Assembly: GCA_002118135.1 (NCBI GenBank)
Contig: BDIU01000407.1
Location: forward strand, 1 to 64,000
From: Trebouxia sp. TZW2008
Taxonomy: Eukaryota; Chlorophyta; Trebouxiophyceae; Trebouxiales; Trebouxiaceae
Direction: 5' to 3'
Length of the DNA: 64,000 bases
Shown: positions 468 through 61,900 of the stretch, piece by piece
How the letters are laid out: the number at the start of each line of letters is the position of its first letter
Numbering within the stretch: position 1 is the first letter of the stretch
Translations under genes and position numbers: made by a program
The notes under the pieces: generated by a model
Seen by the model: only the letters and a program-made list of their open reading frames with translations
What the model was told of the DNA's origin: nothing
Databases searched by the model: none

Positions 468-3400
468 TCAAGACAGGTCTCTTGCAGACAGCATGTCTAT
501 AAACTGCTCAGTGCCTTGTACCAGATCAGCGAAATTGCTGTTGACTACAGTCTCTTGACCATTTTGCGCCGATTGGTCAGGATCTGGTGCGGCCTGCTGG
601 TTTGCATCAGACAAGTTTGCATCTGCTTGCCGGTTGCTTGCTGCCGTACTCAAAGCGTCATTTGTTCTCTCAGCACTTGTTGCTGGGCTGCTCTCATTCT
701 CACTGACTCTGCTGTTGTTATGCTGGCCAAGAGCTACGTCCTGCGTGTCTGTTGCTGTTGGCGTTTCCTGCTGCTTGGCGACGCCCTGAGTACCCGACTG
801 CAAAGACTCCCGTCCAGAAGGGGTTGCCTCCTGCCTTCGATGTGCAGCTGAGGGCAGCTCAGAAGTGCCCTGCCCTGTTTGCTGCAGCGAAGGCTTCACT
901 TCAGGTGCATGCCCATTGCGGGACCTATCTGTTCCTGAAGCTACTCGAGACTCTGTCAAATTGCCCAGACTGCTGCCAGGCACATGGGCTGCTGTTGTGC
1001 TGCTGCCCATTGACGAGGGGTGTGAGGCATAGCCACTGTGCTGGTGCCCTGCTGGCAGCGGTGCACCAGCTTTTGTAGGGCTGCTGCCTAGAGATGAGGG
1101 CTGTGAGGCGTAGGACCCATGCTGCTGGTGCCCTCCTGGGAAATCTCCCTCAGAGAAAGCAAAGGACGCGGGTCTGGAGAGATCAGTTCTGCGGGACTTG
1201 GTTTGGCCAAAGACGATGCGGCCAATGAGGGTGTTCAGCAATGGAGCCATGGTGTCGGGCTCATGCTGCCTGCACCAAGACAGTGGCAAAGGCTGATGAC
1301 AGGGGCGCGAGCAGACACCTGTTCTGCATTGACCTCAATTCATCAAAAGGTTGCAGAAAGTAGTTCTCCCTGGTAATGTGCACAACATGTCATTTAAGTC
1401 ACAAGGACAGATGCACCACTCAGCTTAAGGCTTGGCATGCAGCAGATGCCAAGAGGCAGGGTCAGTGTTCACCCTAAACTGCTGCAGCGTGCTTGACCAG
1501 AACAACACTGACTTACCTGTAGTACATGAGGCCGCCCATGCAGAGGGAGAAGAGGATGACTTCCCCAAACTTGACGGAGGGCACCCAGCGCCGCTTGGTC
1601 AGCGCCAGCACAAAGCTGTCCACCGCCCTGGGCATGACATACAGGGCCAGCTCGCTGCGCCGGCTCTTCTTCTCAATCAAGATGGACCCTGATGCCACCA
1701 GTCCTGGGCAACAGCTTGACATCGTCAATATGGACGTCATGCACCCCATAAAGGTTACAGACTGGTCAGCAAGCATATGCCAAAGGCACTGAAGTTGATA
1801 GCTTTGAGTTTCTTGAGCAGCCTCTGTACCCTGCTTTACAGCTTATGTGTCTCTGCCAATGATGGTTTAGAGACAAGATGACATGACCTCAGACACATGC
1901 ATGCCCGCAACAGCAAGGTATCTTGTGCCGCCTTTCACAGTGCTGACCAACAAAAGCTCACATACTGCTTCTCTTAAAGCAGCACTTCCAGAATGCTCAT
2001 GCAAACACAACGGGGCCCATCATGATGCTTGACAGCCTTGACTTTTGTATGCCTCTTCCATGTATGCCTCTTCAACTCACAAAGACTTGCTTTATGTTGG
2101 CAAATAGCATCAATAGCTCCATCCATTTGTCAGGTTTGTCCCTGATCTTGTCTATTCCTGGGAATATGTTTTGGACATTTGCTTCTTGTTTGAAACTTTG
2201 CCATCCTTCTGTTTGCTTTTGTTTCTCATACTGCTGTCACCTGCCACATAGTAGACAAGCTTATGATCCCCAGAGAAGAGCTTGCGGTGCAGGCTGATGG
2301 TGGAAGAGTACAGCCCCACAAAAGCAGCCAGGAAGCTGGTGCTCCTCACAGCGCTGCCTATGGCATGACCAGCCGTGCCAAAGACATCGCGCAATGCTCG
2401 CTTCAGGTTCAGTACCTGCATGCTCACACCATACGTTGTCATAAGCCAATACAAATTAAAAATTGGATCTTTAATGCAGGCATGAAGATTTATACGACAG
2501 CAATGCCTATGGCGTGTCCAACATATCACGCGATGCTTGCTTCTGGTTCAGCACCTGCAGGCTCACACCAATGGCATCATATGCCATGCTGCAGCATGGC
2601 AGAATAACCTGTTGATCACCCATAGATAGCTTGCAGAGTTGCAATTCAGTTGAGCGTTGCCAGCATGAAATCCTTTTGTTGCAGCTTTCAGCACAATTGT
2701 AAAGTGTGAAGTTCAGCTGCGTGTCTACAAGGATCATGAGCATTTGGTGGATTGTTGTTGCATAGCGTCTGAATGACCAGACAGCAACTGTCGCAAGTTG
2801 AAGTCACAGGGCACACGGTTATCTACGACATGTGCTCACATGGCAATGAGACAATAACATCAACCTTGCAAGCAGAATCTACTGATCTTGGGCACAGTAC
2901 TTGTATCCAAGCAAAAAGCGTTTAGGAACTTTGGACAGAGGGTCGTTGATGCAGCCAAGTTTTGCTAGTCCTAATCAGAGCAAAAATGATCATACAACCA
3001 CTTGCTGTGCGCCAGGGCCTTACCACATAGGGCACCAAGGAGATGGACATGTAGAGGGGAAAGGTCTTGCGGAAGGTGTTGCAGGGCACCTTCACATTGT
3101 GCAGCAGGGCTGAGGCCGTCTGGGGGTGGATCATGGCATCTGTAATCTGCACAAGTTTAAAAAACTTCATTCCACTTAGCATTGATGCCGTCACCAACAA
3201 GTGCGTAAAATGAAAAAATCTTGCTCGTCTCAGCGACATAGAGCAAAATGCAGCTGACTTGTCGGGTAGGCCATGCTCAGGGGCTTGTTTCAACTTGCAC
3301 ACTCAGACAGACAAACCCACATGATGACTGTCATGCATTTTCTAGTCACTCATTCACATAAAATGGTCAAGATGCTGAGGGAGTTCTGCCACATGTTGCA

Positions 3401-5982: not shown

Positions 5983-6609
5983 GCTGCCTTAACTCAGGCA
6001 CAGAAGGTCTCCGAGATTGTTCACAGCTTGCTAATCGCGGGCAAGCGACAACGAGAGAGGCTGAGGCACTGGTGAGCCTACTGCTGCCTACTTCTGCAGT
6101 TCTGCATGGTCAAAAATGCATCGTGTGGAGGGAATATTGAGCATATGTTGGCAGTCACAGCAGATGAAGTATTGAGAATGCTGCAGTCTGCCACCTATAA
6201 ACGTGTTGGCTTAGCACAAATGGTTGACAAACCGCCGGTCAAGCGCTCAGTCGTGCCTGGTCAGCCAAACTTAAGTCAACTCGATTGATTCTGGATTTCT
6301 TGCAGCGCACGTGCAGCTCTCGATCGTCTGCCAGCCGCAAAGCCGGGTGACCTGTGGAAAACTGAGTATTGTCAATTCGACAGCAGATACGACGACTACA
6401 GATCGCAGGCGTCCATATCTGAGACTTGCCGGAGCTCATAGCACTGTCGTGCTTGCTGAAGTCTTTTCCGCTGCACACTGTGCCCACCTGTGGCATCACT
6501 GATACTTGTTGTTCTCATGGTGACCCTGCTTCAGACACTGCTCTGAGGCTGCCTATTGCTCTGGCAGCTCTGCTCAACAAACCAGCCATGACCTGCTCGA
6601 TATAACATC
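5983..6609. promoter_or_regulatory. Divergent intergenic region, TMEM135-like and TruB
   Basis: The 627 bases between two divergent start codons must hold both promoters and 5' untranslated regions. CpG is more frequent around 6010-6060 and 6225-6360 than in the neighbouring introns. No convincing open frame or RNA gene is visible. Confidence 0.45.
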
Positions 6610-22065: not shown

Positions 22066-24938
22066 TCACGATTGCTTTACAGGAGCTTTCGACTCTGCCG
22101 CTAGCACTGTGAGCAAGGCTGAAGGCGCAATCTGGTCAAGAATGATTTGTGTATTAGCAGCATGTTGTACACGGGCATCTTTTAGCTCCACCAGGACAAC
22201 TTCCTGCACCTGCGCAAGCAATACATTCGTTAGTTGTATGCAGCTTCGAAGGAAATTACAGCACAGTCAAAAACGCAGAGGGTTATTTGAAACCCTCAAC
22301 ACTGCAGCATACAATGAGAGGCATCACCCAGCAACGACAGCAGTGAGCAATCAGGTCATATAGGAATTAGCTTGCAATTGCTTGCTGACAGATCTGGCAG
22401 TCTTTCTGATTATTGCATGAGCCCTCTGCAACAAGCAACAGCCAGTCAAGCAGAATATGGGCAGGATCTGCCGTCAGCCATGTAAGCTTTACTGCACATC
22501 ATGCCGTTTGGTCAAACCTTTAGGAAGCTGCTCAATCGCGTAGCACATCGCAAGTCAACATACGAAGCGTTGTCACAGACAGAGCCCTCATTGACACACT
22601 GTGACATTTTATGTTCTATGCAGCAACATGTGTGTCACGGTCAAAAGCAGTCTGACTCACATCATCAAAGTGAGCGTCACCAGCAGATGTGTTGATCAGC
22701 ATTCTCACCTCTGTATAGTAAGCGATACCATCTGTGACTGCGTCAACAATGGCTGCTTGCAAGGGTCCCAAGCTAGGGTTGTACGCCGCACTTTCCAAGT
22801 ATGGGCCGCTGTAAATGTCCCCTCCAGCTGTCACTATGGCCAAGCCTGATGGGCAGTGGCTGTAGGGCGCATAGGAATGGACCGCCTGTTTTAGAGCTGC
22901 CTTCACAGCTTCCAAGAAAGGCACCTCATTCCTAGACGCAACTAGCTCCTGAGTCTCTGCATGGCACTCTCTCAGAATGAGCACGCAGTAAGGCAAGCAG
23001 GCGAAGTGAGCGGGCGTACAGCGATGGACTGCTGCTAAAATGCAGCCTTCACAGATTCCAGTGATGGCACCTCATCCCTAGCGACTACCAGCTCCTGAGT
23101 CTCTGCAACCCAACATACAAACATTTACCCACAGTAAGACATGCAGGCGTCCTGAAAGGCAGTGGCTGTAGGGCGCATAGGAATGGATTGCTTGCTGCAG
23201 CGCTGCCTTCACAGCTTCCATGAAAGGCACTTTGTTCCTGGACGCTACCAGCTCCTGAGTCTCTGCAACACGTTGGGCACTAACCAGCACAGGATATGGC
23301 ATGCAGGCGCACTGAAGGACAATGGCAATAGAGCGCATAAGAATGGAGTACCTGCTGGAGAGCTGCCTTTACAAATTTCAAGAGAGGCACTCACACAACA
23401 TGATCTCTACCTCATACAGAAAGATACAGTCAGCCCTAGCAGCGGTGATCCTAGACTTATTGGGGTCATATAACAGAGCCAGAGAAGAGAAAACCCATCA
23501 AAAGGTGTAATTTCTGTATATTGTAAATACAGTGGTCAATCAAGTTTCACCTGCAGTAAGCTCGAGGTGATGCTCCTGAGGTTGAAGAAGAAGCGGGGTG
23601 TTGGGGTCAGTTAGCAAGTCAGCAGGACCAAAGCGCTGAGGCAGAATGTCTGCCATTCCCCACGACTTTTGCCTGCCTCCAAAGAAGAAGCGTATGCTGC
23701 CCTACGTCAACATCACAATGTATTACAGCAGGTGCAACCCTGTGTCAGCGGAGACGCCACAAGATGTTTCTTGCAGCTGTAGCAAAAAGCTGTGCAGTGA
23801 TACACTGAGATCTACTGAGCTGTCAGCAAAGTGCCTGCGTGCCTCAGGACAACAATGCCAACCAAGCAAGTTGCAGCAGAAGTGCGCATGCTGGATCAGG
23901 TCTGGCTTGTTTGATTGCTCTGAGATGTGCTGCCCAAGCTGCAATGCGCAGAAACAAGAGACACAAGATGTGTTGCAGAGTGAACTGCCACATGTGCATC
24001 CTTCCGTTGTTTGCATAGGATGACAGAAATACAACCTCAGGATTGCTTCAGAGGTATTGCATTGATGAAAGCATTGATGTTGCAAAGATGCTGCAGCCCT
24101 ACTTCCTTAGCATTGCATTGTTATTGCATTGTGATACTTGGCTGGCATGAGCTCACCGCGCAACACAGCTCTGAATAGAATTGCCGGCAGTGACCGCAAG
24201 GCGCTGCAGAGACAGCCATCTTGGTAATTTCTCTTTCTTGATGGTGTAGAGCATTGACCACCAGGAATTGCTCAGCATGGACTGAATTGTTCAAAGGCAG
24301 CCTGGCAAACTCCAGATTCACGCCAACATACAAGCGGCCACTGATGCCTAGCGCCACTGCTCTGCAAGAAGGCAGCATTCAATGACCATGAAGCAAGGTT
24401 GTTGGCCTAGTGAGATCAGATATTGATTCACAGGTAAAATTTGTCTGAACGCCGTGTTGGCACAGGCTGTGTAGAATGGCCAGTGTGGGAGGCTGTGTTG
24501 CAGGTATATGCAGTTTCCCCCCACGTGTGAAGTTGATCAAGAGTCAAGGGCTTACCCAACGTGAAACGAGGAGATTGGAGGCCGAGCCAGAGACGAGGCA
24601 GGTGTGATCAAGTTTTGTAACAACTGATCCTCTGTCAAGTTGTTCTCCTTCAGCAGCGCCTGCACCTCTTCCGCTTCCAGCCAAAACTTCTCCCACTGCA
24701 CCGTGGGGACATTGTTGCTTTGTTGCGTGTCTTGCTCTGCAGCATCGACAATATAGCTGCCCTGTCGGTCGGAGGGGTGAATGCCGGTAACTTGCCCGTG
24801 AGCGCTGCAAAAAACGCAACGGGCGTCGAAATCGTATTTTGTATACGTTTGACGTGCTCCGCAACCTGCAGGAGGAGTTGACTGGATGCACCTGCTCTCG
24901 TGACCGCCGTTTTCTTGTAGCTCTTTCAACCTGTCCAT
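22066..24938 (-). CDS. Plant-type cytidine deaminase
   Basis: Cytidine deaminase hydrolyses cytidine and deoxycytidine to the uridine forms in pyrimidine salvage. The exons are 24938-24556, 24361-24157, 23701-23551, 22956-22709 and 22209-22066, in phase, 376 residues. The first domain carries AVALGISGRLYVGVNLEF, the NSVHAEQ segment with the zinc-binding His and catalytic Glu, and APCGHCRQF with both zinc cysteines. Exon 3 has ILPQRFGPADLL. The C-terminal domain (VPFLEAVKAALKQAV...SGPYLESAAYNPSLGPLQAA) is the degenerate second deaminase fold typical of plant and E. coli dimeric enzymes. The start at 24938 is the first ATG in frame; an upstream open stretch without ATG reaches 25196, so the N-terminus is uncertain. 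Intron 3 holds three decayed copies of the start of exon 4. Confidence 0.87.
22850..23400 (-). repeat. Four tandem copies of cytidine deaminase exon 4 start
   Basis: The true exon begins at 22956. Copies starting near 23104, 23265 and 23395 repeat the gttgcag acceptor, the gagactcaggagctngt start and about 120 bases of exon, followed by a similar 50-60 base spacer starting cgcctgcatg. One copy (about 23268-23150) keeps an open frame (ETQELVASRNKVPFMEAV), one has an in-frame TAG, and the outermost is truncated. Confidence 0.88.
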
Positions 24939-36201: not shown

Positions 36202-39200
36202 TCAAATTGTGCTCCGCACTTGCTCAGCCTTAGAGGCCATGGCAAACTCCAGAACACAGTCAGCTAGCTTTTGTGGCTGTTCTAGATGTGCGCAGTGGCC
36301 GCAATCCTCAACCCAGACAAGCTTTGACTTTGGTAAGACCTGACTGAACTGTTCTGCATACTCTGGCTTCAGAATCTTGTCATTGCGGCCCCATACAACC
36401 AGACACTCCTGCTGCACCTCAGCAATGCGCTTACTGATTGAATAGCCACCAGTCTGAATGAAAGCAATATTGGCCTCGGTCCAACCTGCAGCAGCATTTC
36501 AGCTGAGTTGGACAAACAAGCCAGAGCTATAGTTACAAGCAATAGCAGCATTGACATATAGTTTCTGTCATAAAAGCGGCCGTGACATTACCATCAACAC
36601 AACCCACCAATATGTCAAGCAAGACACTGCCAGGCAAACGTTCAACAAGTCATTGCAAGGCATGCAAACACTGTATTTGTGCCCGTTGCATGCAATACAG
36701 ATGAGCTGACTTGTTTTCTCTGTCATGTATCTGGTTGACAACTGATGCTTGTCATGGTAGTGCCAAGCACCTGACAAAGTTGAATGAAACACACTTGTAG
36801 CAACAAGAACAAAACTTCTTACCTGGCAAGAAGGTGTGTAGCCTGCCTATGTTCATGGCATCCTGGGTTGCAAGGGCTTGATCTTTGTACGCCAAAGTAT
36901 TGGCATAGTTACGGATGGCTGTTGACTTCAGAATCTGCAGGGTAAGGCCCCCTTTGGAGTCTAGCTCAAAACTGCTCTCACAGCAGATACTGTGATGACA
37001 TGCATCTGATACAGGCATGCAGATGTATGTACACATAACTGCCTAATCTTAGTAGATGCTGCGTGTCATCAAAAGTCACTTCAGCATGTTAGGCAGACTT
37101 GATGGAAATTTGAATGCATCGTGCATTGCGGCCTTCATGCCATGGTGATTGCATTGCACAAAGACAGCGCGTCATGCATCTTTCTAACAGCTCTGCCTGG
37201 CAAATGCGCCTGGGAACCAGCCTGGACTGCAAAGCCCAGTCTGATGGTCTTGAGCAATTTGCTGAAAGAATACCATTGCAACGCACAACCTCATGAGATA
37301 TATAGATGAAACATTAGCATGCGTCCAGGAAATATGTGGGCATTCAGCCAATTTGCTGCGGTGAGTCAACCACCCACTTGTACAAGCAGGTTGATCAGGA
37401 ATCTGGGAGCAACTCTCCAGGGACCCAGGCCGTCAATGAACCCTTGCGCATCCACAAGCACCAGCTTCTCAACAGCTTCTGGGTACTCTACGGCAAAGTC
37501 CATAGCTATTGCTCCTCCTAGGCTGGTTCCAAGAACGATCATTGGCCGCTTGATCTATGCTGCACAGCAAGTCAGCATGTGACTTGTTTTCCTGACACTT
37601 ATGAGTCAGTGCATTGTTGGAGCAAAGATGACAGCGTTGACTTGTAAGCTCAAACTGCTGTTGTCAAGATGCAGCTTGAACTTGTAAGCCTGTCACGGTG
37701 TGCAACATAGATGTCATCAAGGCAGTTAGATTTGGGAAAGAGAAAGGCTCAAATGAATGCCAAACAGCTGACCATGATGGAATGCTCCACAATGCAGTGT
37801 ATGCTCTTTGCAAGTACAAGCACGTTGTATGCCTGGACGTATCCCAAACAATCCAGCAGTTTTGCCTCATTTGAAGCAAAGAAGGCCTTGCATGATTTCA
37901 GTACATAGTCTTCTCAGCTGCAGACCTTTTGGTGTCCATACATCGTCCAGCACAGCACAAATGGACAATGAAATGCCACCTCAGCATATGCTGATGATCA
38001 ATCCAAAGCATTCAGTCAAAAGCACTGTAAACAGTATGAGACTTGGTTTGCAATACCTTCTCCTTCCAAAAGGCATACAGGTGGTCCCGCTTCTGTTTGG
38101 GTCCTAGCTTCATGTCTTTGTGTCGGGCAGCCCCACTATCGCTGAAACCCCAACCCACCAAATCCACTGCCCAAGTCTCTAGTTTTGCTTCCATGAGAGG
38201 AATCAACCGCCTAAACTCAAGGCTTGAGCTGTCAAATCCGTGCAGCAGCAGAACTGGCGGCTGATCCCCGTGGCTGCTGCCATACTCTGCAACCGTCACA
38301 GGGAATATGATACTGATATCAAATTATGTCTCATGTTTGTCATGAGGAGTACGAACCGCGGCTTGAGCTGTCAAAGCCATGCAACAGCAAGACTGGCAAC
38401 TGATTGCTGTGGCTGCTGCCATAATCTGCAGTTGTCACATGTCGTGTTCACAATATGTAATTGACATCACAAAATGAAAATCCATTGCCTGAATTCCAGG
38501 CTTGAGCTGTCAAAGCCGTGCAGCAGCAGGACTGGCGGCTGCTCCCTGTGCCTGCTGCCATACTCTGCAGGCACCATATGCTTGTGATGTAAAACAAACA
38601 GTCTTGTTACTATCATTAAGATCATTTGTAACTGGACATTCCTTCAGGAGCGGCAAGTGCAGCAGACAACAGCAGTCAAGAGTGCACTTTCGAAAATTCA
38701 AAGTTGCAAACCATGCAGCAGCAAGTTTGGCGGCTGAACTCTGTGACTGCTGCCATATTCTGCAGCCAGACCACATGCCTCAAATACCAACAACACAGTA
38801 TGAACTTTGCTCTGCATCAGCCATAGGAAAGGTGAGAGTAATGATTGTGACTTTGACAAAGCACCCTAGTCAGCACATGTGAGACACTGACTTAATCCAA
38901 GATGAAAGTCACACACAGGCAAACTCGCTTCAGACCTGGCTGTGCACTTTTACTGAGGTGAAATGTTTTGAATTTTTGTTCAAAATTTACCAGCAGGGCC
39001 GAGGTATGCTGTCTCTACAGGACAAGTCAGGGAAGGAGCATTGATTGTACTTCGCTGCATGCGCGCCATCACATCTAGAGCTGCTTGTTCCTTGATCATG
39101 CTTGCTTGCTCTGGAAAGAATTCAGGGTGCTGCATCTTCTGCAGAAGCAGCAGAGTCGTCGACAAGGGTTTCAGGCAGATTCACCGCCATAGTCTCCGTC

Positions 39201-39782: not shown

Positions 39783-42700
39783 ATGCCTAACAGGCTTGCG
39801 GGCATGCTCGTTGCATGGGTGCTGTTGTCCGTGACAACAGGTGTGGTGACGCAGACAGTGCTATCTTCGAGCTCTCTCGCGACTTGCGTCAACGATGGCA
39901 CGGTGAGCTACCGTTTATCATCGCATGCTGAAATGACTTGTTGTTTGCCGGCATGCCCTGACTGTCAGATGCGTACCTGACAGGCGGCAGCAACCCAGCT
40001 CTCCTGCTCAAAGAAGCTGGTCGTCAATTTGGTCATTGCTGCTGGGACAAACCTCGTGACCGAGTCTCTCGATTTCACTATTCCTTGTATTGGCAGGTGA
40101 GCAACCTTTGCTGCTACATGCACAATTTCTCCAACCCCTCAAGCTGTTTGCTTGCTTTAGCTGTTGCAGCAAACCTGGCAATGTATCTGCAACTCCACTG
40201 TGCTACCAAGACCTGCTGCTCACAATTTAAGATGGTTCTCTGACATCATGTCGTGCAAGCTCAAGTTCATGAAGTGTCATCCAGCCCATGATGCATTGCT
40301 CATGATGCACTGCACCTCCCAACATCCAAACTTGCCTTTGATCTTTTGGGTCCCAATGCTGCTCTTGAGTCAATGTCACTGATTCCTGAAAGGATGCTTG
40401 CCCGTTTTGCCTGCTGCAGCACTGATGGCGTCTAATCCATGCACATGAGGCTACATCACAAACTCCATCTAGACTTGTACTGCACCGAGCATCCCAACCC
40501 ACCAAAGCATCTTGATCTTTGGTTGCTTGTGAGAACAGGCATCAGTTTGTTGCATATTCTGACTTGCACTGTTTGGCCTGCTGCAGCTCTGATGGGGTCT
40601 GTCCGTGCACATGCGACTACACCACAGATTCCAGCTGTACATGCCGAGACTTGGCTCAGTCCATCAACATCACCATGACTAAGAGCCCTGTCATGGCCAC
40701 GTACCCACTCACGTATATAAAGTCCTTCAACAGCAAGCCATATGAGCAGATCATTATGGTTGGCGGGAATTACCCAATCTCATCATGTGATTCCGGAGGG
40801 AACAGCGCTTCACCCACCTGTGGTTGGGCTACAGATGCCAGTGGCAACAAGATTGTGTAAGCAAACTGACTTGCCTCAGCAACAACATCTGCACAACTTC
40901 TGTCACATTGTGATCAGCCAAACTCCTGGCTGCAAGGATAATTGCATGTCATGTCATGTGACTAGTTTAGTCATAAATGGGCATTTTGGACATCTCCTTT
41001 GCACAAGACTACGTGTTCTTGCATGGTTGCTGTTTCCTGTTCAGACCCATCATCCACCCCAGCTGTCATCATCCAATCAACAGTGAGAGATGTGACTTGC
41101 CAGGTGAGTGTACATGCAGCCACAGTCAAGGCATCTGCTGTGATTGCCCACTGTCAACTGACTATGACACGTTTTTAGGCAGTAGCAGCAGCACCACTAC
41201 ACGTGGCAACCTGATCCTTTCCAGATTTTGAGCGTTTTGCTGCATTGTATCCGCAGGAACAGTCAGGGTTTCTGTTGTGAGTGCTCACTGTCAGCAGTCT
41301 ACGACACAACCCTGGGCGGCAGCAGCAGCACCACCACACGCGGCAACCTCAACTGCAACCTGTTCTCAGCTGGCCTTTTCTTGGACGGTGTGCCAGGGTC
41401 TGCTCACTGCATGAGATATGCAGATCTGTGGTATGCGGTGCGTTTGCATCTTTTGCTAGCATCAAATCTCAATACTCTGGTACCTGCATGAGGCTTGCTC
41501 ACTTTGAATGCATGTGGTGCGTGGGGTGATGCAAGACACTGCTTGCCTGTCAAGACAGTCACGCATTCACGCTGCTGGCTCATGTCTTGACGATACATCC
41601 TCGTGTTAATCAGCCACAAAGTATGACCAAGTGCTTGAGTTTCTGGGCACTTTGACATCGGACCACAAACTCGCAACCTTTGTGCATGCACTGGATCATG
41701 TGTAGCAAATTCTTTAGTGCTTGCACAGCAGCGATTGGCAATCATATGAGTATGCATCAATGTGGAGCACAGTCTATGATGAGTTTAAAGTTTTGCCTAA
41801 CTCGCACAAAGATCCTGTGATGTTGCAGGGATATCAGCTAGGTTCTTCACAGCTGGACTTTGCCATCCAGATTCAGGTGACTAGCACCACAAATGCGTCT
41901 TCTGCTACGACTGTCACGGAAACCCTGCAGCTGGACCCTAGCGACCCATATGTGCTGGATAACGCCAATCTTGTGAGCGCGCAGCTGCTGGGAGACCTGC
42001 TGACTTACACAGCGTTACCAGTGTTTACAGACACTTACTTGATGATTCCAAGCCCTACAGGTGAGTTGCAGCTTCAGCCAGTCGCCAAAACAACACATTA
42101 TGCAAAATTGCTCGTTACAAAGGTTTCTGGCTATCCATTGCATGTGACCAAGCCACTGGACATAGCAACAGCTTTGAAAAAAGTCCAAAAAGGATCTTGA
42201 TGCAGCCTTTGAACAAGTCAGGCAGCCCTCATTGCTCTGTCCAAAGCTGTGAAAGGCATGGGGGCCTGAGTCTGCCTTTGCCTGTGGGCGCATCTACTGA
42301 GTCAGCCCCTGTGCGTCATCTGCTTCCTGCATTCTGACCCGTCATTTCATGCATCATCGGAGGCATGCTTGTTGAGTTGCAACGTTTTCATGCACTTTGC
42401 AAGGATGGGTGCCCAGATAGCCCCGGCCACAAATCTGTACCAATGAATGTTGGTGCCCAACAGTCCCTTTTACTGCAGCTGCCATCAATTTGTCAACCGC
42501 CATTCAAGGCACCACAAATCACTCTGAATCATGACAGTGACACTGCATTGTAGGTGCGGGTGCCCAAATAGCCCTGACCACCAACCTGTCTAGGTGGATG
42601 CTGGTGCCCAGCAGCATGGTGAATCTGGATGGCAGCCAGTGCAACATGGTGGGCACAGGCTACACCGCCTTTGCCACCCAATCGGTCAGTCATCCAACCC

Positions 42701-45700
42701 CAATTTGTCACCCCAAACTCATCTTTCCTTGTTTTGTGACCCTGATTTGGTGTTTTATGTGGTAGCACGCAACCTGCTGTCACTCATTGGCAAGAAAGTG
42801 TTGGCTCAAGCAGAAATGCCTGCACATGGCTACAGCCCAGTGACAAACAGTTGTTTAGCTGTAATTTAGCTGCTAACACCCGTGTCACCTGCAGAGTGGG
42901 TGCAACCAGCTTCCTCAGACCTGCCTGGCCAATCAGCTGAATGACCTCACAGTGGCTGACTTGGCAAGGCAGGCTGCTGGGACCACCCCCCTCTATCTGG
43001 TGGGGCGCTATGGGGGCGGCATCTCAGGGTCCACTCAGGTGCGTGTGTGCGTGCCCAGATCCAACCTTATTGCAAGCTCAACAAATACAAGAACACAAAC
43101 CAAGCCTAATAAGCAACACATGATGAAACAAAGCAGAGCGGGACAGCACAGCAAACCGGGACAGCACAGCACAGCACAGCACAGCACAGCACAGCACAGC
43201 ACAGCACAGCACAGCACAGCACAGCACAGCACAGCACAGCACAGCACACCAGACTTTCCAGCAGAGTAGAGACAGCAATGCAGTGCAATTGCCTTACACC
43301 CAGGAATTGGTGAAACTTTTTGACATGCAGGCTTTCAGGAAGGTAGCAAATGGGCCGCTGTGGTTTGGGCTGCCCATCACCAGCATCTCCAACAGTCAAG
43401 TGGTACTGAATGTGAACGCAGCCTCCCTGCAACTGGTGGTGAATGCCAGCCCAGGCAAAATTATGTTTGGCCAGGTATACACACACAATCGGACAGACAG
43501 CCCCTGTTCAAGTAACTGTCCTGGCAACATTGTTTGTGATTAGGTGGTGCTGAATGTAAAAGCAGCTTTTCTGCACCTGGTAGTCAATGCCATTTCAGGC
43601 AAAATCACGTTTGGCCAGGTACGCGCATGAACAGACAGCTTGCTTGTTTTGTTGCAACAATTGATGTTACAGTCGCATGAGCACTGCTTTTTGTGCTGTT
43701 TATGATTAACGTATTATTGACCCGTGTCCACTGACCAAGTTGCCAATACTTTAAATTATTGCCGTGTTCCGTGTTGCGTATGCGTATTACGTATTACGTA
43801 TGGTGCGACACTGGTGCAGGCCTTGTGGCATCCAAGCATCATGTATATGCAGACACATGCGCTGGTCCAAAACTGCTGGCTGGTTTTGGAACACTCCAAA
43901 GTGCAACTGCATTGACCACAGCATGGTGAAAGTTACAGCTTGCTGCACTCAGGGTATGCTTCTAGGCACATAGCATTCAAATTGGCAAGCAAAGTCACTA
44001 TTGCAAGATTAACTGTCACAATTGTGGACTTGAATGATGATTTGGGGTTTTGCTGCAGGTGTGTCAGTATGGCAACTCCACCTGTGGCAGCTTCCAGGCG
44101 CTGACTCAGCGGGGTTACCTCATCACAGACATTGCCAATACAGGCTACGTCAACGCCTCTTACACTGTCACGGTAAGACCTGACAGTCACAGTTGTAGTC
44201 ACAGTCGTAGTCACAGTCACGGTCACGGTCATGGTCACGGTGACGGTGACGGTCACGGTCCTGGTCATGGGCACACTCACGCTCACACTCACACTCACAC
44301 TTACACTCACACTCACACTCACACTCACACTCACACTCACACTCACACTCACACTCACACTCACACTCACTCACTCACACTCACACACACGCTCACACTC
44401 ACACTCACACTCACACCCACACCCACACCCACACCCACACCCACACCCACACCCACACCCACACCCACACCCACACTCACACTCACAGTAAATGACTGTC
44501 CTGTACAAGAAAAAAGAGAAAATCTACGTCGTTAGGCGTGTTTGAGAGGCCTCGGATAGACCGTGGCTTCCCTTTTTTGCTCTTCAAGAGCAATCAGGAG
44601 CAGAAATGCGCAGCTAATGAGGATCAAACACTTGTGTCTTGCACTTCCTCTGTTTAGTTGTTTTAGAAATCTTGGTGTTTTTGAGCTTTTTTCTCAGTTT
44701 TATGATGGTATGGTGGGTCAACACGGCATGTAAATGTAAATCTTTCAGCAATTTCTTTGCTTTGTCTCTCTCAATGCTTAGTGTGTTCAATGCCATCACA
44801 TTTATGTTGTAGATTGCACCTGTTACACCGAGTACAATAGGCAGGAGTATCACTTCATATCCCTGTTGTTTGAGCAATGTTTGTAGTCTTGCATGTTGCT
44901 GCTCTTTACGGGCGTATTTGTCTGTGTATCGGGTCTCCGTGCAGTATCCACCTTCCACAATCCATATTTTCCTTGGTAAGTTGCCTTCCACTTTGGAGCT
45001 GAACCTCAGCATGGCTTTCCCTGTCATGTACATTTCACGCTCTGTGGCTGTCCATTCTACAAGCATGATGTCCGATCTCATCTGTACAATCTTTTGCATG
45101 CCTATGCAGAGTCATGGAATCTTAACAGCAAATGGTACTATGTGCCTATGCAGGTGTCTAACTGCTCAGCAGGCATCACCAACCCAGTGGCTCAGCAGGG
45201 CAGCATTGCCGCGCAGTCAGTGTCCAGGTTCACCTTTGACATCTACACCACTGATGACATTGCCACTGACAGCAGCTGCACTGTGGGCCTCATCAACTCG
45301 CTGGTGATGCCCTACACACTTGCCGCCTTGTCGTTTTTCTGCTCAATTCTCTGTGCCAGAAAGAAAGACTAGGTGCCGGTGACAGCCATCGCACTATGTG
45401 GGCCTCATTAACTCCCTGGTACTGCCCTGCACACTTGCTTTTTTGGTGGTTTGCCTGCTTCTTTTTCTCTGTCAAAGAGGTAAGAAGGAGCCATAGCAGC
45501 TGCACTCCCTGGTACAATAAACTCTCTTTGTAACGACCGCTTTGCTCACCAAGAAATTTGTCCTGACATTGAATTGTCCTTACTCAGAGAGACCACTGCA
45601 GTCAGAATGCAGTGATTGGTAACCAATGGCGTTGTCCTTGCATTGAGATTGTCCTTACATCGAGTGTCCTTACAAAAAGAGTTTACTGTACCAGCCTGTG

Positions 45701-49339: not shown

Positions 49340-49383
<44 letters not shown>

Positions 49384-51500
49384 AGCAGTCAGAAATCAGT
49401 CCAGCAAGCTTTGGTCCCAATGGTCTAGGTCAGTCACAGGTTGTCCAGAGGACTGATGCAAGCAGCCCTGGGGCAAGACCTGATGGAAGCAGCCCTGGTG
49501 CAGCAGTTACTCAGCAGGTGGGGAGTGTGCGTTATGCTTTGGCACAGAATGCCAAATACCAACAGATGCTACAGCAGCAGCAAGCACGAAGGCAGCAGCG
49601 CCAGTCACAGCTTGGACTGCAGTTTGGAATGCAGCAAGCACCAGGCCCACAGCAGCAGCAGCAGCAGCAGCAGCAGTTGCCGCAGCAGCCAAGCTTACAA
49701 GTGCCAAAGGCACAAAACAGTGAGGTATGGCATTGAACCCACACATGCAAACAACAAGAAAGTTTGACACGGTCAGACATCACAGTAGCAGTCTTTGTAA
49801 GCGGCATCAGCGCCTGAACTTTGACATACATATACATCGGGCAACCATGTGCTGCATGCTATTATTGCTTTCAACATTCACACAATGTCACTTCAACATG
49901 CAGACTTGGTCTCATCAACTGATGCAACAGTCTGCAGCCACAAGCACAGCTTTCCTCATTCTGAGACATTTGCAAATGTCTATGCACTCAAATCTGTCAC
50001 ATGGGCATAATGCTCAACGTCAAGCATGACAGTTGCATGACTTTCAATGGCGTTACGAATGTCAATTACTGACAGCCTGTGGATATGCAATACTGGCAGT
50101 GATTCAGCAGCTGATGCAGCAGTGTGCCGCCACGAGAACAACATTGCACCAAAGAAATTCAGACACAACAATCATCACAACACATGTGCAGCGTTTGCCT
50201 TTGCCAAATACAAATGCAAGTAGTGGTCACAGCCTGTCAATGTTTGATGCAGGCAGTGATTCAATAGCTGATGCAGCAGTATGCAGCAAGAGGCACAGCC
50301 TTGCTCAGCAGGGCAACTGTGCAAATGTTTATGTACTCATCTTCAGCAAGGGCACGTTACACTCATTCTTACGAATGTGTCATACAGGCTGTGATTCAGC
50401 AGCTGATGCAGCAGTATGCCGCCACGGGAACAGCCTTTCTCAACCTGGCTAAGCTCAAGCAGCCTCCATCGTCATTACTCAATCCAGGTCCAACTCCCAG
50501 CTTGGCTGGGGATCTGCAGACTGTGGAAGATGTATCATATCAGGGACAGGCACAGGTCTACTTTACCTTGAAACCAGGCAGATTGCAGCAGTTGGTGCAG
50601 TTCAACAGCGGGATGGGGCAGTATGAGATGCTGCAACAGCCCTGGTCAGTACTGTTCAACATGCTCAGTAACAAAGCATTAATGCATGCATGCATTCAAT
50701 GGTGCATGTGTTTTGGTCAATGCACAGTCATGATTCAAGATACTGCAACAATTTTGGTCAGTGTTTCCTTACACATGCTCATCAAGCCATTCCTGATACC
50801 TATCACATCAGTCGTAATGTGACATGCTGCCGCAGCCTTAATCAGTATTGCATTGAGCATGCTCCTATGTCAAGCATGATTCAAGATGCTCCAGCAGTCG
50901 CTCAGTCTTGCTTTTGATTTGTCCATGATGTCATGTATGATGCTGTGCATCATGCACAATACAAGATGCTGCAACAGCTCTGGGCAGTATTGCGCTCAAT
51001 ATGCTCGTTGAACCACTCACAACACAAGATGATGCAAGCCCTGGTCGGTGACGCATTTGACACGCTTCGTTCCATCATCAAGCATTCAATGATGCATGCA
51101 TCAAGACATGGCAAAGTCCCTGTGAGCCTGTGTGCTGGATTCTGTTACTGACTTGTTTCACAGACATCCCTCATGATCTCAAGACATGGTTGCAATCAGA
51201 CCAAATTGGCTGATGCACATTGCAGCATGAATCTGCAATTGGGGGCTTGAGAAGCGCCTTACTTGCAAGTCTACATGTCAGCATCACAGCTTGCGCAGCG
51301 TCAATAGCATGACTTGTTCTGACACACCGTTGTCAAGATTGCTTGCCAGAGGTGTAAACAATACTGTCCACAGCTCACCAACATCAGTGATGTATTTGCC
51401 TTGCAGGCGATTGGACAACTCACAGTTTGCATTGCTGCTGACAGCAAAGAATGCGCAGAAGCTTCTGGCGATCCAAGACCCTGGACAGTGCCTCAACTAG
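39783..51500 (+). CDS. HAP2: HAP2/GCS1 gamete fusion protein
   Basis: HAP2/GCS1 is the eukaryotic gamete fusogen, a single-pass membrane protein with a class II fusion fold. The model has fifteen exons: 39783-39902, 39999-40096, 40587-40856, 41257-41437, 41829-42060, 42554-42684, 42895-43038, 43304-43474, 44059-44172, 45154-45303, 46460-46697, 47425-47706, 48103-49724, 50388-50644 and 51407-51500. All are in phase, about 1367 residues. A signal peptide (1-24) precedes the Cys-rich ectodomain: [79 protein letters not shown] membrane span ([18 protein letters not shown], about 603-622) and a Lys-rich stretch follow. The remaining tail is Gln-rich. Exons 1-12 are firm. Exons 13-15 fit by phase but could be a separate gene starting near 48115. 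Confidence 0.87.
40380..40470 (+). repeat. Partial copy of HAP2 exon 3 start
   Basis: The sequence gcctgctgcag followed by cactgatggngtctnnnccatgcacatg repeats the acceptor and the first 50 bases of exon 3 (40587). It lies about 175 bases upstream and has lost the reading frame. Confidence 0.78.
41100..41220 (+). repeat. Partial copy of HAP2 exon 4 start
   Basis: An acceptor (catgcag) and the next 100 bases translate as [11 protein letters not shown]...STTTRGNL, parallel to [11 protein letters not shown]...STTTRGNL in exon 4 (41257-41437). The copy ends before the conserved SAHC segment and has no donor. Confidence 0.85.
42400..42475 (+). repeat. Partial copy of HAP2 exon 6 start
   Basis: The sequence gggtgcccagatagccccggc and the following ggtgcccaacag repeat the start of exon 6 (42554) about 145 bases upstream, with frame-breaking changes. 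Confidence 0.75.
43161..43245. repeat. (ACAGC)n microsatellite in HAP2 intron 7
   Basis: Seventeen perfect ACAGC units lie about 60 bases before the exon 8 acceptor. It is the reverse complement of the pentamer array in the TruB intron. Confidence 0.97.
43541..43625 (+). repeat. Partial copy of HAP2 exon 8 end with donor
   Basis: The bases ggtgctgaatgtaaaagcagc to tttggccaggtacgc repeat the last 80 bases and 5' splice site of exon 8 (ends 43474). The copy lies about 150 bases downstream. Confidence 0.85.
44181..44487. repeat. Hexanucleotide microsatellite in HAP2 intron 9
   Basis: The array runs from CAGTCA/CGGTCA-type units through CACTCA to CACCCA units, then back to CACTCA. It starts nine bases after the exon 9 donor (end 44172). 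Open frames on both strands here (Thr/His, Ser/Val, Glu/Cys repeats) are artefacts of the repeat. Confidence 0.95.
44614..45099 (-). mobile_element. LINE-type retrotransposon remnant inside HAP2 intron 9
   Basis: A 161-codon open frame lies antisense to HAP2 with the order [60 protein letters not shown] and [17 protein letters not shown]. This is the layout of the region after the reverse transcriptase in LINE polyproteins (PD-type motif, then KExxKxxxL, then VIPVVIGALG-like, then ILRKxL). No reverse transcriptase domain is present, so it is a 5'-truncated or eroded copy. The frame is still open, which suggests a recent insertion. Confidence 0.65.
45380..45490 (+). repeat. Partial copy of HAP2 exon 10 end with donor
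   Basis: The bases tgtgggcctcattaactccctgg repeat the end and donor of exon 10 (ends 45303) about 115 bases downstream, together with the first bases of the intron. Confidence 0.82.
45560..45870. repeat. TCCTTAC-rich dispersed repeat, two copies
   Basis: Two adjacent copies (about 45560-45690 and 45740-45870) share an order of short blocks: ttgtccttactcag, ccactgcagtcaga, then tgtccttaca and a final tttactgta-type end. A third copy is in the SGNH gene at 59020-59150. Confidence 0.72.
46255..46350 (+). repeat. Partial copy of HAP2 exon 11 start
   Basis: The sequence aggcaagaagatcgctgcattc and the following 70 bases repeat the first part of exon 11 (46460) about 200 bases upstream. Confidence 0.83.
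46775..46915 (+). repeat. Partial copy of HAP2 exon 11 end with donor
   Basis: The bases cagctgagctgcgctttccag to ggcctgtcataggtgagc repeat the last 110 bases of exon 11 and a donor about 210 bases downstream. A stop breaks the frame. Confidence 0.85.
49905..50335 (+). repeat. Three partial copies of HAP2 exon 14 start
   Basis: Copies near 49912, 50100 and 50260 repeat the gtgattcagcagctgatgcagcag start of exon 14 (50388), followed by the gcagccac/aagcacagc segment. Each is interrupted differently. Confidence 0.82.
50695..51060 (+). repeat. Partial copies of HAP2 exon 14 end
   Basis: The exon end agatgctgcaacagccctgg with its donor (50645) is echoed near 50735, 50880, 50965 and 51030. The spacing is roughly 70-145 bases and decay increases. 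Confidence 0.65.
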
Positions 51501-53285: not shown

Positions 53286-53525
53286 CGAAAATAAACACTT
53301 GTGGCTGACACGGGCCCTATGTCTAGAACTTCGGTAGTCACTTTTCGCTTGCGCTGAAATTGCAGAGCTGCTTGTCTTGAATATGCATTGACTAAAGCTG
53401 ACTAAACGGAGATCTTTCGATCAGCAGCAGGCTGCACTGCAAAGGCAACGCAAACCTTGCTTGGCGCCTTCAAGATCGCCTCTGCTTTCTCGGAACTATG
53501 TTGCGTTTCTCATGCGCCCAGCAGC
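53286..53525. promoter_or_regulatory. Bidirectional promoter region, coiled-coil ORF and phosphoesterase
   Basis: The 240 bases between two divergent ATGs are moderately rich in CpG, and the enrichment continues to about 53740. It is the expected location of both promoters. No TATA box is clear. Confidence 0.45.
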
Positions 53526-55903: not shown

Positions 55904-58900
55904 ATGTCTGCATCGCTGCAACGGCATCGACATCGAAGGTCTGCTTTGAATTCGCTATTGCTGCCCTTGTGCTGCGCAATTCTATGTTGCTCGTGTCGTG
56001 CTGCACCCTACAACCCAATAAGTAGCGACGAGATCCCGCACGACTGCGATATACCCACCGAGCAACAAGGCTGGTATAGCTGCAACGTGCACACCCGCCA
56101 AAGAGCGCCGTCGATATCGGTTCAAAATCGGGTACGCCCCGGCGCATCAGCTACGCACAGCAGCACACCGTGTCTGCAGGCCCGCATCAAGCTTGGCGTT
56201 CCTCTTCTGCAGGGATCGCCTCAGAGACGGCAGCTTCTGGAGCGCATCTTTGCGTATGAATTTGCGTTGCCGGAAGATTTGCTGCAGCAAGGTCGAGGTC
56301 CACCCGGAAACACAGACAGACTCAACAAGGTTTTCAGGAAGTTGCTAACAGGTAAACAGCAGAGCACTTGGACCTTGCGGCTCTTAGTGCAATATCAGCG
56401 CTGCAGAGGCCTCCACTTTGCAGCAACAGGAGTCATGGACAGCCCAGACCAGACAGCAAGCTGAAAGGGTTCGCGCACTGCCTGTAACACAGTGTTGCCT
56501 CGCACTGCTCTGTGCACTGCAGTGCAGTGTCCTGCAGCGCACCAAAGTGCCTTCAGTCAAACATGCTGCATTCCTGCTGATAGCAGCAAACTGTGCACAA
56601 GTGCTTGAGCTGACCTGGGCACTACCAGAAAGGAAGACATACCAATCATATGCAGCAATAAAGTCAACTCTCAAGTAGCTCTTCAGTAAACATTCTTGCC
56701 TCTTGAAGCAGAGATTGTAGCAATGTTCCCTCTTACAACAAGTTCACAAGCATTCAGGGCGATACTGGCTGGCACAGCGCTGCGAAGATGCTTCGGGCAG
56801 TCATGCGCGTCATAACAGCAAAATCAGGACATCATTATTGCAATGTCAGCTGTGCAAACAGGTGTTCCTGGTGCTTACAGGGCATCCAGTGAGGTTGAGC
56901 TTCATTGGAGTAGCATAATCATTTGTTTATCTTCTTTTTGGTTCTGTGGTGTCAACCTTTTGTTGTCAGCAGTGCAAACGAGGTGTTATGCTTGCAGGGC
57001 AGCCAGTGAGCTTGAGCTTCATTGGTGGTAGCATCACTGAGGGGGGCGGGGTACCCTACCATGAAAGACCCAACTTGGCCTTTGCAGGGAAGGTCACCAA
57101 CTGGTTCAAGTATGTTCCACCACTATTCTTGCCATTCATGATCATCATTAGCGCTAGCATCGTTTCTCACAGTGCATTCTCACAGTGCATGTTCAGATGA
57201 TTGTTCAGCAAGGCTCTAAAACTGTCTTGCACCATGCAAAAGCATTGATATCTTAACTGCTTGAGATGCAGCACATGCACCGATTGCACGCTGTGACATT
57301 TCATCAGATTGATGTGCTTGCCGCATCCAAACATTTGCATCTTGAGCACTGTGACAAAGCCTTGTGAACAGCACCTCCATTATTGCTCACACCCAACGAC
57401 ATGACTTGCCTAATACACACAGAGGTTGACCCTTCACAGGTCAGCTCTTCCCACACAACATGATCCCAACATTTGGTGCTCACAGCCTTCTGCCTGACCA
57501 CAAAACATGACTATACGTGCAGGGAGACATTCCCAAACAGCACAATCACAGCTCAGAATGCTGATGTTGGCGGCGTGACCAGCACTTACTATGCACAGTG
57601 CGTGGACACATTTGTGTCTGACAAGAATATGGATCTTACACATGTGACACCAATTGCAGGGAGACATTTCCAAACAGCACAATCACAGCTTAGAACGCTG
57701 GAGTCGGCGGCGTGATCAGCACCTACTATGCACAGTGCGTGGGCATGTTTGTTTGTGAAAACAACAAGAACCTTACACATATGACAATTACTGCAGGGAG
57801 ACATTTCCAAACAGCACAATCACAGCTCAGAATGCTGGAGTTGGCGGCGTGACCAGCACCTACTATGCACAGTGCGTGGACATGTTTGTTTCTGACGAGA
57901 ATGTGGACCTGGTGCTTGTGGATTTCACTCTGAACGACAGAGCTAGCGGTGTGGAGGGAAAGTCTCCTGAGCCTGATACTGCTGACAGGTAGCCCTGATT
58001 TAGATGTCGCATGCATGCAGTTTGAATTCCAGTCTATCAGCCAACATCGTGGTGGATCTGCACACCATTGCATCCTCCTGCATACATTTCTTGTTTGATG
58101 CATGTCTCGGCACAGCTGCTTCAGCTTGACCTGAAAGGAAAACTGAATTGCACTGCTATTCAGTTCAGATCTCACGTGGGTCGTGAGCTGCTATCAAGTG
58201 GCTGTGACCAGACATCTAAAGCTGTGCAGATGCAGATTGTGCGCATGCAGACTTGAGCTGGCGCGTTATCACTCTGACAATCAGCTAGCAGAAAATCAAG
58301 AGTCTGCTCAAACTCATTCTAGACAGTGTCTCCTGCATTTGACATCATGCGCAGATGCCTCATAGCTTTGGCAACCTTTCTCGAGCAACAGTGTTGCTTC
58401 AACCAGCCAGTGATGCTCCCCCTGTGTCTCCACGCACTGTAGTGGATCACCAGTGCCATTTCTGAAGCATCTTTGCTGCACCACAGTTGATACTGTTCTT
58501 GGCAAAAATGAGCACATGTCTTGACAAAGGCTGCTTCCCTTGCACTAGATGAAGCACTGCTTTGCTGCTCCTTGTGGTGCAGCAGGATTGCTTCAGTTGG
58601 CCAGTGGTGTTCCCATCTTGCTTTAAGAATTGCAGTGGATCACCATTGGTAGACTGGCGCAACTTTGCTGCCCAGCACTTTACACTACGAGCACATGCCT
58701 TAACAAAGGCTGCTTCCCTTGCACTAGATGAAGCACTGCTTTGGTGTTCTTGGTGAGAACACCAAAGCAGGGTTGCCTTGTTTGGCCAGTGATGTTCCCA
58801 TCGTATCTCCAGAACTTGCAATGGATCACCGTTGCCAGACTGGCGCATCTTTGCTGCACCACAGCTGACACTGCTGCTGGCAAATGTGTGCATGTGTGCG

Positions 58901-61900
58901 GCCTTGTTGTGCAGATGTCTCGTGCGGCCTTATCGTGCGGATGTCTCTGAATGCCCACAAGAGTATGTACATGTACAATAACATCTCTGTCTCACAACTG
59001 CTTCAGTCACAGAGGAACATGTCTTCACATTGAGTTGTCCTCACTCAGCGGAACCGCTGCAGCCAGAATGCAGTGATTGGTTTCCCACTGCGTAGTCCTT
59101 ACAGCGAGAATGTTCTTACAATGAAGGTCCTTACAGAGAGAATTCACTCTGCAGCCATGCCCTGCACTTGTGTTCTTACCTGCTCTCATATTGTGTGTAC
59201 TTGTCCAAGTGTCGAGCTTGGATTGCAGGAGGGGTTATGAAATGCTGGTCAGAAAGCTGTTGGCACACAAACAGCAGCCAGCTGTCATGGCTTTGCACAG
59301 CTGGAGCCCTTTTTTCAACCACCCCAGCTTCTTCAGCACAGTGGAGGACCTAGCACAGACCCTAGTGGCGTATTACGGCTTACAGTCCGTCTCCATGCGT
59401 AATGCGCTGTTCCACCCAACATGGCAACGGCAAGAAAACTTCAAAGGCACCCAGTGGCTTTGTGACAGCATACATCCCAATACTCTGGGCCACCGGTGCG
59501 TCATCCTTCAATCTCCCAAACATCGCAAGCACATGCATCAGCTACAAAGTTGGGTCTTAAACCTACAAAGAAACATCCACCTGTGCTGCCAGACCTTGAG
59601 GCTCAAAGAACAAGTGTGTAAGAACATGTCAGTAAAAGCGGTATCCTTGCTTTGCTGGAATGCTTTTGGGAGCCCTTGCTTGATGATTTGTGCTAGGTCC
59701 TCCTGTTATTGCCTCTTTCCATTGTTATTGCTTTGCTGTACCTGGCTCACGTTTTGCAGTCAGTACATATCGCATTCACAAGCCGCATTTGCTAGTGTCA
59801 AAGACCCAGCCCAGGCATGTGTGGCAAAGCTGTTTGCCTGAGCTGGCACTTTGGCCCTGGCAAACGTAGCTTGTGTATGGCTGATGTACTGTCAAAACGA
59901 TGCCTCGATGCAACACATGCCATGTTGCTCAGAGCCACAGGCAGGGCATGACTTAGATGTGCTGTTGTCTGTCCATGGCCTGCTGTTGAAACTGTGGGGC
60001 TGGTGCTTTCCCGTTGACCTGTTTATGCAGTCTTGATATCATGCCTGCTGCAGGATGTGGCTCTGCCCTGCAACCCGACCAGCCCCTGTCCGTCGTGTAA
60101 TCTGTATCAACCCATTTCTGGTTCAGTCAACCTGCCAATGACTTATGAACAAGGCTTCTGACTCATATCTTTGTGTATGCAGGTATTACGCAGACTTGAT
60201 AGTAGGGCTGTTGCAGGATGTAGCCCTACAGGCTGCCCTGCACCCCTACCAGCCGCCTGAGCCGTCGGGGTTTGACCTCCCGCCTCCCATGTTTGAAAAC
60301 AACCTAGAGAGCCAGTCTCGGTGTCTCAGAGGGGACTTGCTGCAACAGCGAGTCTACCAAGCTGTGGTGAGTCATCCTGCCTTTTCTTCTGTTTCACTGT
60401 CTCATAGTGTAAGTTGCCAGATCAGGTTTGGGTCATCTTGTTGCTACCACGTGACGGTACATGCTGAGACTTCAGTAACCTCAGCATAAGTGATCAGCCT
60501 AATACGCTGGCCAAAAGTTGCAGCATTATCGTTTTCTCACAGCCTCAAAGGTCTGTTCAGCAGGATAGCAATATGAATTACAATGGTACTTTGTACCCAA
60601 CTGTATCAACCTTTGTGTGCCTTTCCCTCAGCTTTCAGCCAAAAGCTCAGTGCACGTCAGCAACCAAAGCGCTCTTGCACCCTTTTGGATCTGGGTTCTC
60701 AACACGGCACAGGATTTGCTTGTGGTACAGTGTTTCTTCAAGTCCTGATCTGGCAATGCGAAAGATGCAGTTTGCTTTGGTGTGGTCTGGTCTGACCCTC
60801 TCATGACATCTTACCAGACTTGGCTGACCATTGTCCCTCCTGTGGGACACTTGCTCAATCTGCAGTGCACCATTGGCAGAATGCCACAACTCCCTGTGAG
60901 CTCTGTCCAAGCTGTGTCCTTGTGTTGAGCCAAGCTGTGTCTGTGTGTGTTCATGTGTTTTCTGGCAGTGTGGCCCCTGGTGGTTGAAGCATGGGTGCAC
61001 CGTATCTAGACTAAGCACGGTGCCAGACTCGGCTCACCGTTGTCCCTGCTGTGGGACACTTGCTCAATCTGCACCACTGGCAAAACAGCCCAACTCCCTG
61101 AGAGCTCTGTCCATCTGTGTCTGTGTGTTGACATGTGCTGTGGCAGTGTTGCTCCTGTTTGTCTGGACAAGAGTGCGCTGTGTCTAGGTCAAGCAGGGTG
61201 CACACTGCTACAGCCCCTGTGGGACACTTGCTCGATCTGCAGTGCACCATTGGCAGAATGCCTCAACTCCCTGTGAGCTCTGTCCATCTGTGTCTTTGTG
61301 TTGACATGTGTTGTGGCTGCGTTGCTCCTGTTTGTCTGGACACGAGTGCGCTGTGTCTAGGCCAAGCAGGGCGCACACTGCCACAGCCCATGTGTACAGA
61401 TTGATGCAACTGAGAAAAGCCCTCAATGAGTTCTCCATTGTGAGCCATGTTTAGAGGCTGCTTCAGCACTCTATGGTACTTGTATGTGCCTGTGCATGTA
61501 ATCGATACTTGACTTGTCTAAAATTGCATCATCATGCGTTTGCCAGGAGCAGTCGGTGCCCAATGCACTAAGCACAGACCAATTCTTGGTTATTGGTCCT
61601 TGATGGTTGGGCTACAGAATTGTAGCCGTCGTAGTAACCCTCAAGGCCTCAATGCGCCTGCACACAAAAGTGCTGGTTGTTAGGCTGTACTTGCCTGTAC
61701 TGGTCAAGCACACTGTGCAACCTGTCTAGCAAGCATCTTTTAGCACGCTCGGCAATCAGACTCGAAACAATCAGCACTTGCCTGAGAAGAAGATTGGTGA
61801 AAAGAACAAGAACAAGACTCTCCCTCACATGGTGTGCAGGGCTGGAACTGGGTGGATGAGGGCAAAGATGGGCGCCACAAGTATGGCTACATGACTGATG

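Follow-up and report, generated by a model that had tools for sequence, protein, structure and literature searches.

Partial exon copies in introns of Trebouxia sp. TZW2008 and frequent short-range direct duplication

Partial exon copies recurring in introns of the green alga Trebouxia sp. TZW2008 are mostly one face of a general process of short-range direct duplication. They were noticed in a 64,000-nucleotide stretch, hereafter the window (the first 64 kb of contig BDIU01000407.1, C383 below), where a first-pass annotation had described introns holding degenerate copies of part of a neighbouring exon. In our assessment, frequent direct local duplications at distances of about 100-200 bp, most likely left by error-prone repair, explain these copies (probability roughly 0.7). 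The source genome comprises 68.5 Mb in 527 contigs, with a guanine-plus-cytosine content of about 49-50%. Together with 24 stretches from elsewhere in this genome, the window gave a full sample of 294 kb; the window and 19 stretches from other contigs made up the first 244 kb, and five stretches (50 kb) formed a held-out set.

Upon comparison of the 294 kb with itself, high-scoring segment pairs (HSPs) lying less than 1 kb apart numbered 305 in direct and 8 in inverted orientation and fell into 116 clusters. The direct and inverted counts were 49 and 1 in the window (47 and 0 at a stricter cut-off), 216 and 8 in the nineteen stretches from other contigs, and 42 and 0 in the held-out 50 kb. In the first 244 kb, 11-mers shared at lags of 91-200 bp were about 30 times commoner in direct than in inverted orientation, and the signal was low at lags of 31-90 bp once the array-rich L021 was set aside. 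From the 116 clusters we took 84 simple pairs, excluding those with more than 3 HSPs or a period above 300 and a long terminal repeat (LTR) element. Their median period was 149 bp (interquartile range 117-190), in agreement with the earlier estimate of roughly 100-200 bases. Slippage was rejected as the source, short periods being rare. In a genome-wide search, 10 of 10 duplicated segments were single-locus, each matching itself alone, and dispersed or mobile elements of the introner kind were rejected on this ground. A spacer from L009, searched in the genome, likewise matched only itself, and no source elsewhere was found for it. Detectable clusters thus occurred roughly once every 2.5 kb, which extrapolates to about 27,000 in the whole genome; 15.9% of bases in the first 244 kb lay inside clusters, counting spacers and the LTR element. 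No predicted exon was present in 26 of the 84 simple pairs. Among these 26, one scored as coding at p<0.05, and at least three (L014 7512, L020 2516 and L028 494) have a translation that looks protein-like by eye and may be missed exons.

Exons were predicted with a home-made hidden Markov model (HMM) gene finder started from amino-acid composition, which gave 20 models in the window; an earlier version, trained on long open reading frames, under-predicted and was replaced. Because some exons escape the gene finder and some copies (23119-23262, 57523-57711) are wrongly called as exons, exon labels are approximate. We submitted 12 of the 20 models to Pfam as 10 entries. The families matched above the curated cut-off included TruB, NDK, DUF1681, DEAD helicase, cytidine deaminase, kinase, alpha/beta-hydrolase and HAP2-GCS1, and a GDSL-lipase match was below its cut-off; two of the 10 entries (3 window models) matched no family.

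Among the 539 exon-intron sides of the first 244 kb, 43 had a copy of the exon's own sequence in the flanking intron at a score of >=48. The same sides gave 2 copies with the intron reverse-complemented, 0 with it reversed and a mean of 1.2 (maximum 2) with introns swapped. The first-pass annotation had named two findings that would undo its claim, copies no commoner than chance and assembly artefacts. The controls speak against the former. As for the latter, 33 of 34 listed copies differ by 6-25% from their exon (one 27-bp block is identical), and such divergence is too high for artefacts of assembly. Querying with exons only, and skipping exons <30 bp and introns <60 bp, we found 61 copies in adjacent introns on 576 sides of the 294 kb, so that partial exon copies recur well beyond the window and far above the chance controls.

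The copies have a definite polarity. Upstream copies corresponded to the 5' part of the exon in 21 cases, the middle in 13, the whole exon in 3 and the 3' part in 0; downstream copies corresponded to the 3' part in 11, the middle in 8 and the 5' part in 5. The 61 copies were accordingly classed as 32 concordant with the expected polarity, 5 counter-polar, 3 whole and 21 middle-only, and 32 of the 61 spanned the intron-exon boundary. Counted by exon, 26 were concordant and 3 counter-polar, and the held-out set gave 8 and 0. When the flanks were included in the query (first 244 kb), 29 of 49 copies were concordant and 6 counter-polar. The proposed rule, that upstream copies always keep the acceptor and the exon 5' part and downstream copies the 3' part and the donor, therefore stands as a tendency, with 5 of the 61 copies running against it and 24 being middle-only or whole. 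Among the three counter-polar exons, one is the cytidine deaminase stretch 23119-23262, a pseudo-copy that was wrongly called as an exon and has a stop after it in the model; the other two, at L014 8634 and window position 28069, lie within multi-copy arrays. As a check free of gene models, 167 profile matches were read by eye (9 to RluA-type pseudouridine synthase, 134 to kinase and 24 to ABC profiles). Three clear partial repeats neighbouring the match on the same strand were seen (C401, C130 and C73), all with the predicted polarity and two with a stop; C273 was ambiguous, and the 24 ABC matches had no neighbouring partial repeat. Since the scans score best candidates only, this count is a lower bound.

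Within the window, where at least 13 loci and over 20 copies had been claimed, recurrence was borne out at a lower count: 9 anchored exon loci with about 16 copies, among 26 duplication clusters in total. Seven of the 9 loci were concordant by automatic classing, and 2374/2513 and 57518-57895 by reading. The loci, the exons concerned where modelled as intact, and one exon-free duplication are as follows.

2513..2570, minus strand: upstream intronic copy of an exon 5' part with its acceptor (CTGCAG, read directly); original at 2374-2431, period 139, 83% over 58 bp.
22661..22956, minus strand: intact cytidine deaminase exon (HMM model; Pfam PF08211).
23012..23390, minus strand: three decaying upstream copies of the cytidine deaminase exon 5' part, at about 23012-23102, 23151-23267 and 23312-23390; periods 147, 306 and 466, 70-86%; TGCAG starts the first two.
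38079..38286, minus strand: intact alpha/beta-hydrolase exon (gene model; PF00561/PF12697).
38357..38767, minus strand: three upstream hydrolase copies, at about 38357-38430, 38487-38569 and 38708-38767, each combining a CTGCAG acceptor with some 55-85 bp of the exon 5' part; 81-87%.
42407..42463, plus strand: weak upstream copy of the 5' part of HAP2-GCS1 exon 42554-42684; 77-79%, acceptor AG changed to AA.
43544..43621, plus strand: downstream copy of the 3' part of HAP2-GCS1 exon 43331-43474 with its donor; period 144, 82%.
49919..50307, plus strand: three upstream copies of the 5' part of exon 50388-50620; 79-93%.
56844..56916, plus strand: upstream copy of the acceptor and 5' part of GDSL-lipase-like exon 56998-57109; period 120, spacer 47.
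57518..57791, plus strand: two head-to-tail upstream copies (57518-57654 and 57655-57791) of the acceptor and 5' part of the exon starting at 57797, the first miscalled as an exon; period 137, 87-88%.
60023..60095, plus strand: upstream copy of the 5' part of exon 60183-60366, acceptor lost; 74-76%.
60814..61394, plus strand: threefold direct duplication in an intron, its blocks without a predicted exon; period 209 or 173 in two analyses.

The truncated copies look non-coding. Neither donor-like sequence after the 21 truncated upstream copies nor acceptor-like sequence before the 11 truncated downstream copies exceeded the intron background. The one site that each copy inherits is mostly intact: in the exon-only search, AG was retained in 17 of 21 truncated upstream copies and GT in 11 of 11 downstream ones, and in flank-including alignments of all copy classes (first 244 kb) the figures were 23 of 26 and 8 of 13. 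Kept sites had mean scores of 5.5 for acceptors and 4.9 for donors, those of real sites being 6.0 and 4.8. Use of the copy acceptor would disrupt the reading frame in all 17 cases, frameshifting indels are present in 23 of the 61 copies, and the copies contain 10 stops where 13.7 are expected if the same changes are placed at random. With orphan sites mostly intact and the frame broken upon use of the acceptors, the spliceosome must either ignore them or make broken transcripts. Exon-copy divergence at the three codon positions was.122/.098/.238 over the 61 copies, close to the 1:1:2 expected when one copy is neutral and the other constrained.

These features can be accommodated in a simple course of events. 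The genome would undergo frequent direct duplications over short range, typically about 100-200 bp, which most likely arise when nicks lying close together, or staggered breaks, are repaired with errors, as in the patch-repair class described in rice. They would land in exons, in introns and between genes. Duplications internal to an exon would persist mainly if the frame is kept. Those straddling a splice site would be tolerated as long as an intact exon remains available to the gene; hence the intact copy would survive at the exon, and the one left in the intron, truncated and with a single splice site, would decay. Such copies would be neutral, and the spliceosome would ignore orphan sites for want of a partner. 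The earlier suggestion that the copies may be tolerated because they do not count as exons agrees with the absence of the partner site. As to frame, the period was divisible by 3 in 9 of 10 exon-only duplications, and mostly non-exonic ones were spread over the three classes (17/18/22). This is the pattern expected from purifying selection on frame, although the gene finder favours open frames and may have inflated the 9 of 10. The earlier proposal of a simple tandem duplication with one breakpoint in the exon and one in the intron is supported insofar as the observed polarity follows wherever the gene keeps using an intact exon, but not in its simple tandem form, which would leave more recognisable intron sequence than is seen (below); "tandem" is moreover a loose term, since the spacer is below 20 bp in only 10 of 45 simple pairs and the others lie further apart.

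A series of observations weighs against random local duplication followed by neutral decay, and several of them point to another origin, in which an exon edge with about 5-30 nt of intron is copied about 40-90 bp into the neighbouring intron and the spacer is never duplicated, for instance via template switching in transcription-linked break repair, at a set distance with a spacer often of 41-50 bp. We regard this as unlikely, though not negligible. With spacers included, regions crossing splice sites were about as frequent as at random (47 of 89 clusters, 42.7 expected; first 244 kb), but intergenic clusters were too few (9 vs 18.0 expected) and exon-only clusters too many (10 vs 5.3), in counts of 89 clusters that still contain the LTR element 14689-15007. 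Counting blocks only, splice-crossing pairs (43 of 84 vs 29.9 +/- 4.2 at random) and exon-containing pairs (57 of 84 vs 43.3 +/- 4.5) were both in excess. Exon content was highest among the youngest pairs (21 of 28, then 18 of 26 and 18 of 30), as copying of exon edges would have it; slower decay of exons is therefore insufficient to explain the exon excess and was rejected as its sole cause, while errors in gene models may contribute. Spacers in the 45 simple pairs were below 20 bp in 10, at 41-50 bp in 12 and at 56-92 bp in 12; one pair (spacer 168) is the LTR element. Two pairs of the 41-50-bp pile-up come from the held-out set. Of 54 spacers, 35 did not resemble the flank expected of them, even at p<=0.1, and block ends are sharp. 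The ungapped identity of intron next to the splice site fell from.85 (0-5 bp) through.49,.54 and.41 to.30 (20-30 bp) on the acceptor side, and from.93 through.69,.49 and.47 to.35 (20-30 bp) on the donor side, so that it is near background at 20-30 bp. Intron parts were recognisable in 14 of 31 cases, whereas simulated duplication of the full unit with neutral decay left 86-92% detectable, or 61% at 1.5-fold divergence. The intron overhang of blocks had a median of 27 bp as against 54 at random (p=0.001, 37 pairs), and the hydrolase exon and its three copies have the acceptor and 55-85 bp of exon in common, their spacers sharing by eye only a few bases. On the other side stand clean head-to-tail units (57518-57895, L024 2219 and L025 986) and residual intron homology, which is significant in those 14 of 31; in a gap-tolerant test, 8 of 23 acceptor sides and 7 of 11 donor sides were above the 95% null. 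A trace of the spacer partner (p<=0.1) was seen in 19 of 54 cases where about 5 are expected, and at L026 4296 the missing partner was located, displaced upstream, so part of the spacer mismatch is due to later rearrangement. The 26 pairs without a predicted exon, a number from home-made models in which exon content is approximate, also do not fit copying of exon edges. The remaining mismatch may reflect either fast intron turnover or exon-edge copying.

The third codon positions add to the points against simple neutral decay: the 32 concordant copies diverged by.106/.089/.263, and copies diverged from each other by.160/.122/.300 (19 comparisons), both with a third-position excess above the neutral prediction. 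This excess, together with kept splice sites similar in strength to real ones, is what functional alternative or mutually exclusive exons under selection would show. We consider such a role highly improbable for the copies in general, as the partner donor or acceptor of truncated copies is at intron background, frameshifts occur, there are 10 stops against 13.7 expected at random, and use of the copy acceptor breaks the frame without exception. The arrays L014 8634 and L028 3147 supply 50 of the 109 third-position differences between copies. The same mostly intact sites, with a frame that breaks upon acceptor use, would also suit orphan sites that drive unproductive splicing and tune expression via nonsense-mediated decay. 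That the sites are kept for this purpose seems to us barely credible: AG and GT retention (28 of 32) is not clearly above the neutral guess of 0.9 squared = 0.81 per site. We retain local duplication, most likely by error-prone repair, as the best explanation of the exon copies.

In the multi-copy arrays at L014:8622-9647 and L028:3147-3916, differences are mainly at third codon positions, unlike in most decaying copies; judged by their sequence, these arrays are possibly genuine repeated coding exons. Another array-like region, at 27513-31280 of the window, consists of direct repeats that have diverged and that show 21-bp units here and there, and its predicted protein is rich in Ala and Leu. 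Pentanucleotide arrays occupy two predicted introns, GTGCT x16 in the TruB gene (7648-7728), beginning at the modelled intron start, and ACAGC x21.6 in the HAP2 gene (43143-43248). The HAP2-GCS1 gamete fusion gene (41760-44210; Pfam E 8.8e-48), which carries two exon copies, suggests a capacity for sex; its model ends at 44210, where short-repeat arrays start (to 44487). The excluded LTR-type element, at 14689-15007, is very small (319 bp), with terminal direct repeats of about 72 bp, TG...CA ends and a 5-bp flanking duplication (GTTTG). At least 45 genome matches are listed for it, many of the 72-bp end alone. Its interior contains a tRNA-like stretch by eye, and ARAGORN lists no tRNA in the window. 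It looks like a member of a TRIM family.

The first-pass annotation had further suggested that partial exon duplication is a main route of intron growth. Introns with copies are indeed longer (median 393 bp, n=91) than those without (296 bp, n=238; p=0.03), but only 11.2% of intron bases in the 294 kb lie in a detectable copy. These results support a contribution of duplications to intron length, not yet a main route. Intron growth by duplication becomes countable in this genome, instead of being known from isolated cases, and roughly datable by divergence at codon positions. Each boundary-spanning event is also a natural splicing test, which places a site of near-normal strength without a partner beside the real one, and which orphan sites are used bears directly on exon definition. 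If exon edges are in fact copied, the process would seed thousands of intact orphan sites across the genome (the 28 in the 294 kb extrapolate plainly to about 6,500), from which new exons and introns could arise at any time.

Introners also add sequence to introns, as dispersed families; the duplications described here differ from them in that all ten tested segments were single-locus. Exon sequence repeated within a gene is likewise a feature of tandem or mutually exclusive exons (PMC9013439), from which the present copies differ in being truncated and lacking one splice site. In our gene models, 2.9% of exonic bases (2178/75858) have a homologue of >=80% identity in an adjacent intron; the comparable fraction given there, by another method and with the whole gene as target, is 0.08% in fly, 0.06% in worm and about 2% in human. 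The closest match for the duplication process is found in rice, where tandem duplications account for more insertions than any other source, are over-represented in the 50-200 bp range and have been attributed to the repair of adjacent nicks (PMC7971508). Those duplications are direct, local, similar in length scale and not slippage-like, as in Trebouxia. Unlike the perfect tandem units described there, 35 of the 45 simple pairs here have a spacer of at least 20 bp, and introns are densely populated with recognisable old copies. In mouse embryonic stem cells, fill-in synthesis and end joining are required for the small duplications that form at staggered breaks (PMC8355091). In the potato RdRp gene (PMC4974935), a tandem duplication across an intron-exon boundary created a new intron; the duplicated piece consisted of the intron end and the exon 5' part with an inherited acceptor, as here, but the new intron is spliced between the copies, whereas our copies lie inside an existing predicted intron. 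Given the rice, mouse and potato cases, the geometry of the duplications is already known. Among the literature matches listed, all open-licence papers, none treats partial exon copies as a genome-wide algal feature, and as far as these matches tell, the new aspect in Trebouxia is the density of the exon copies.

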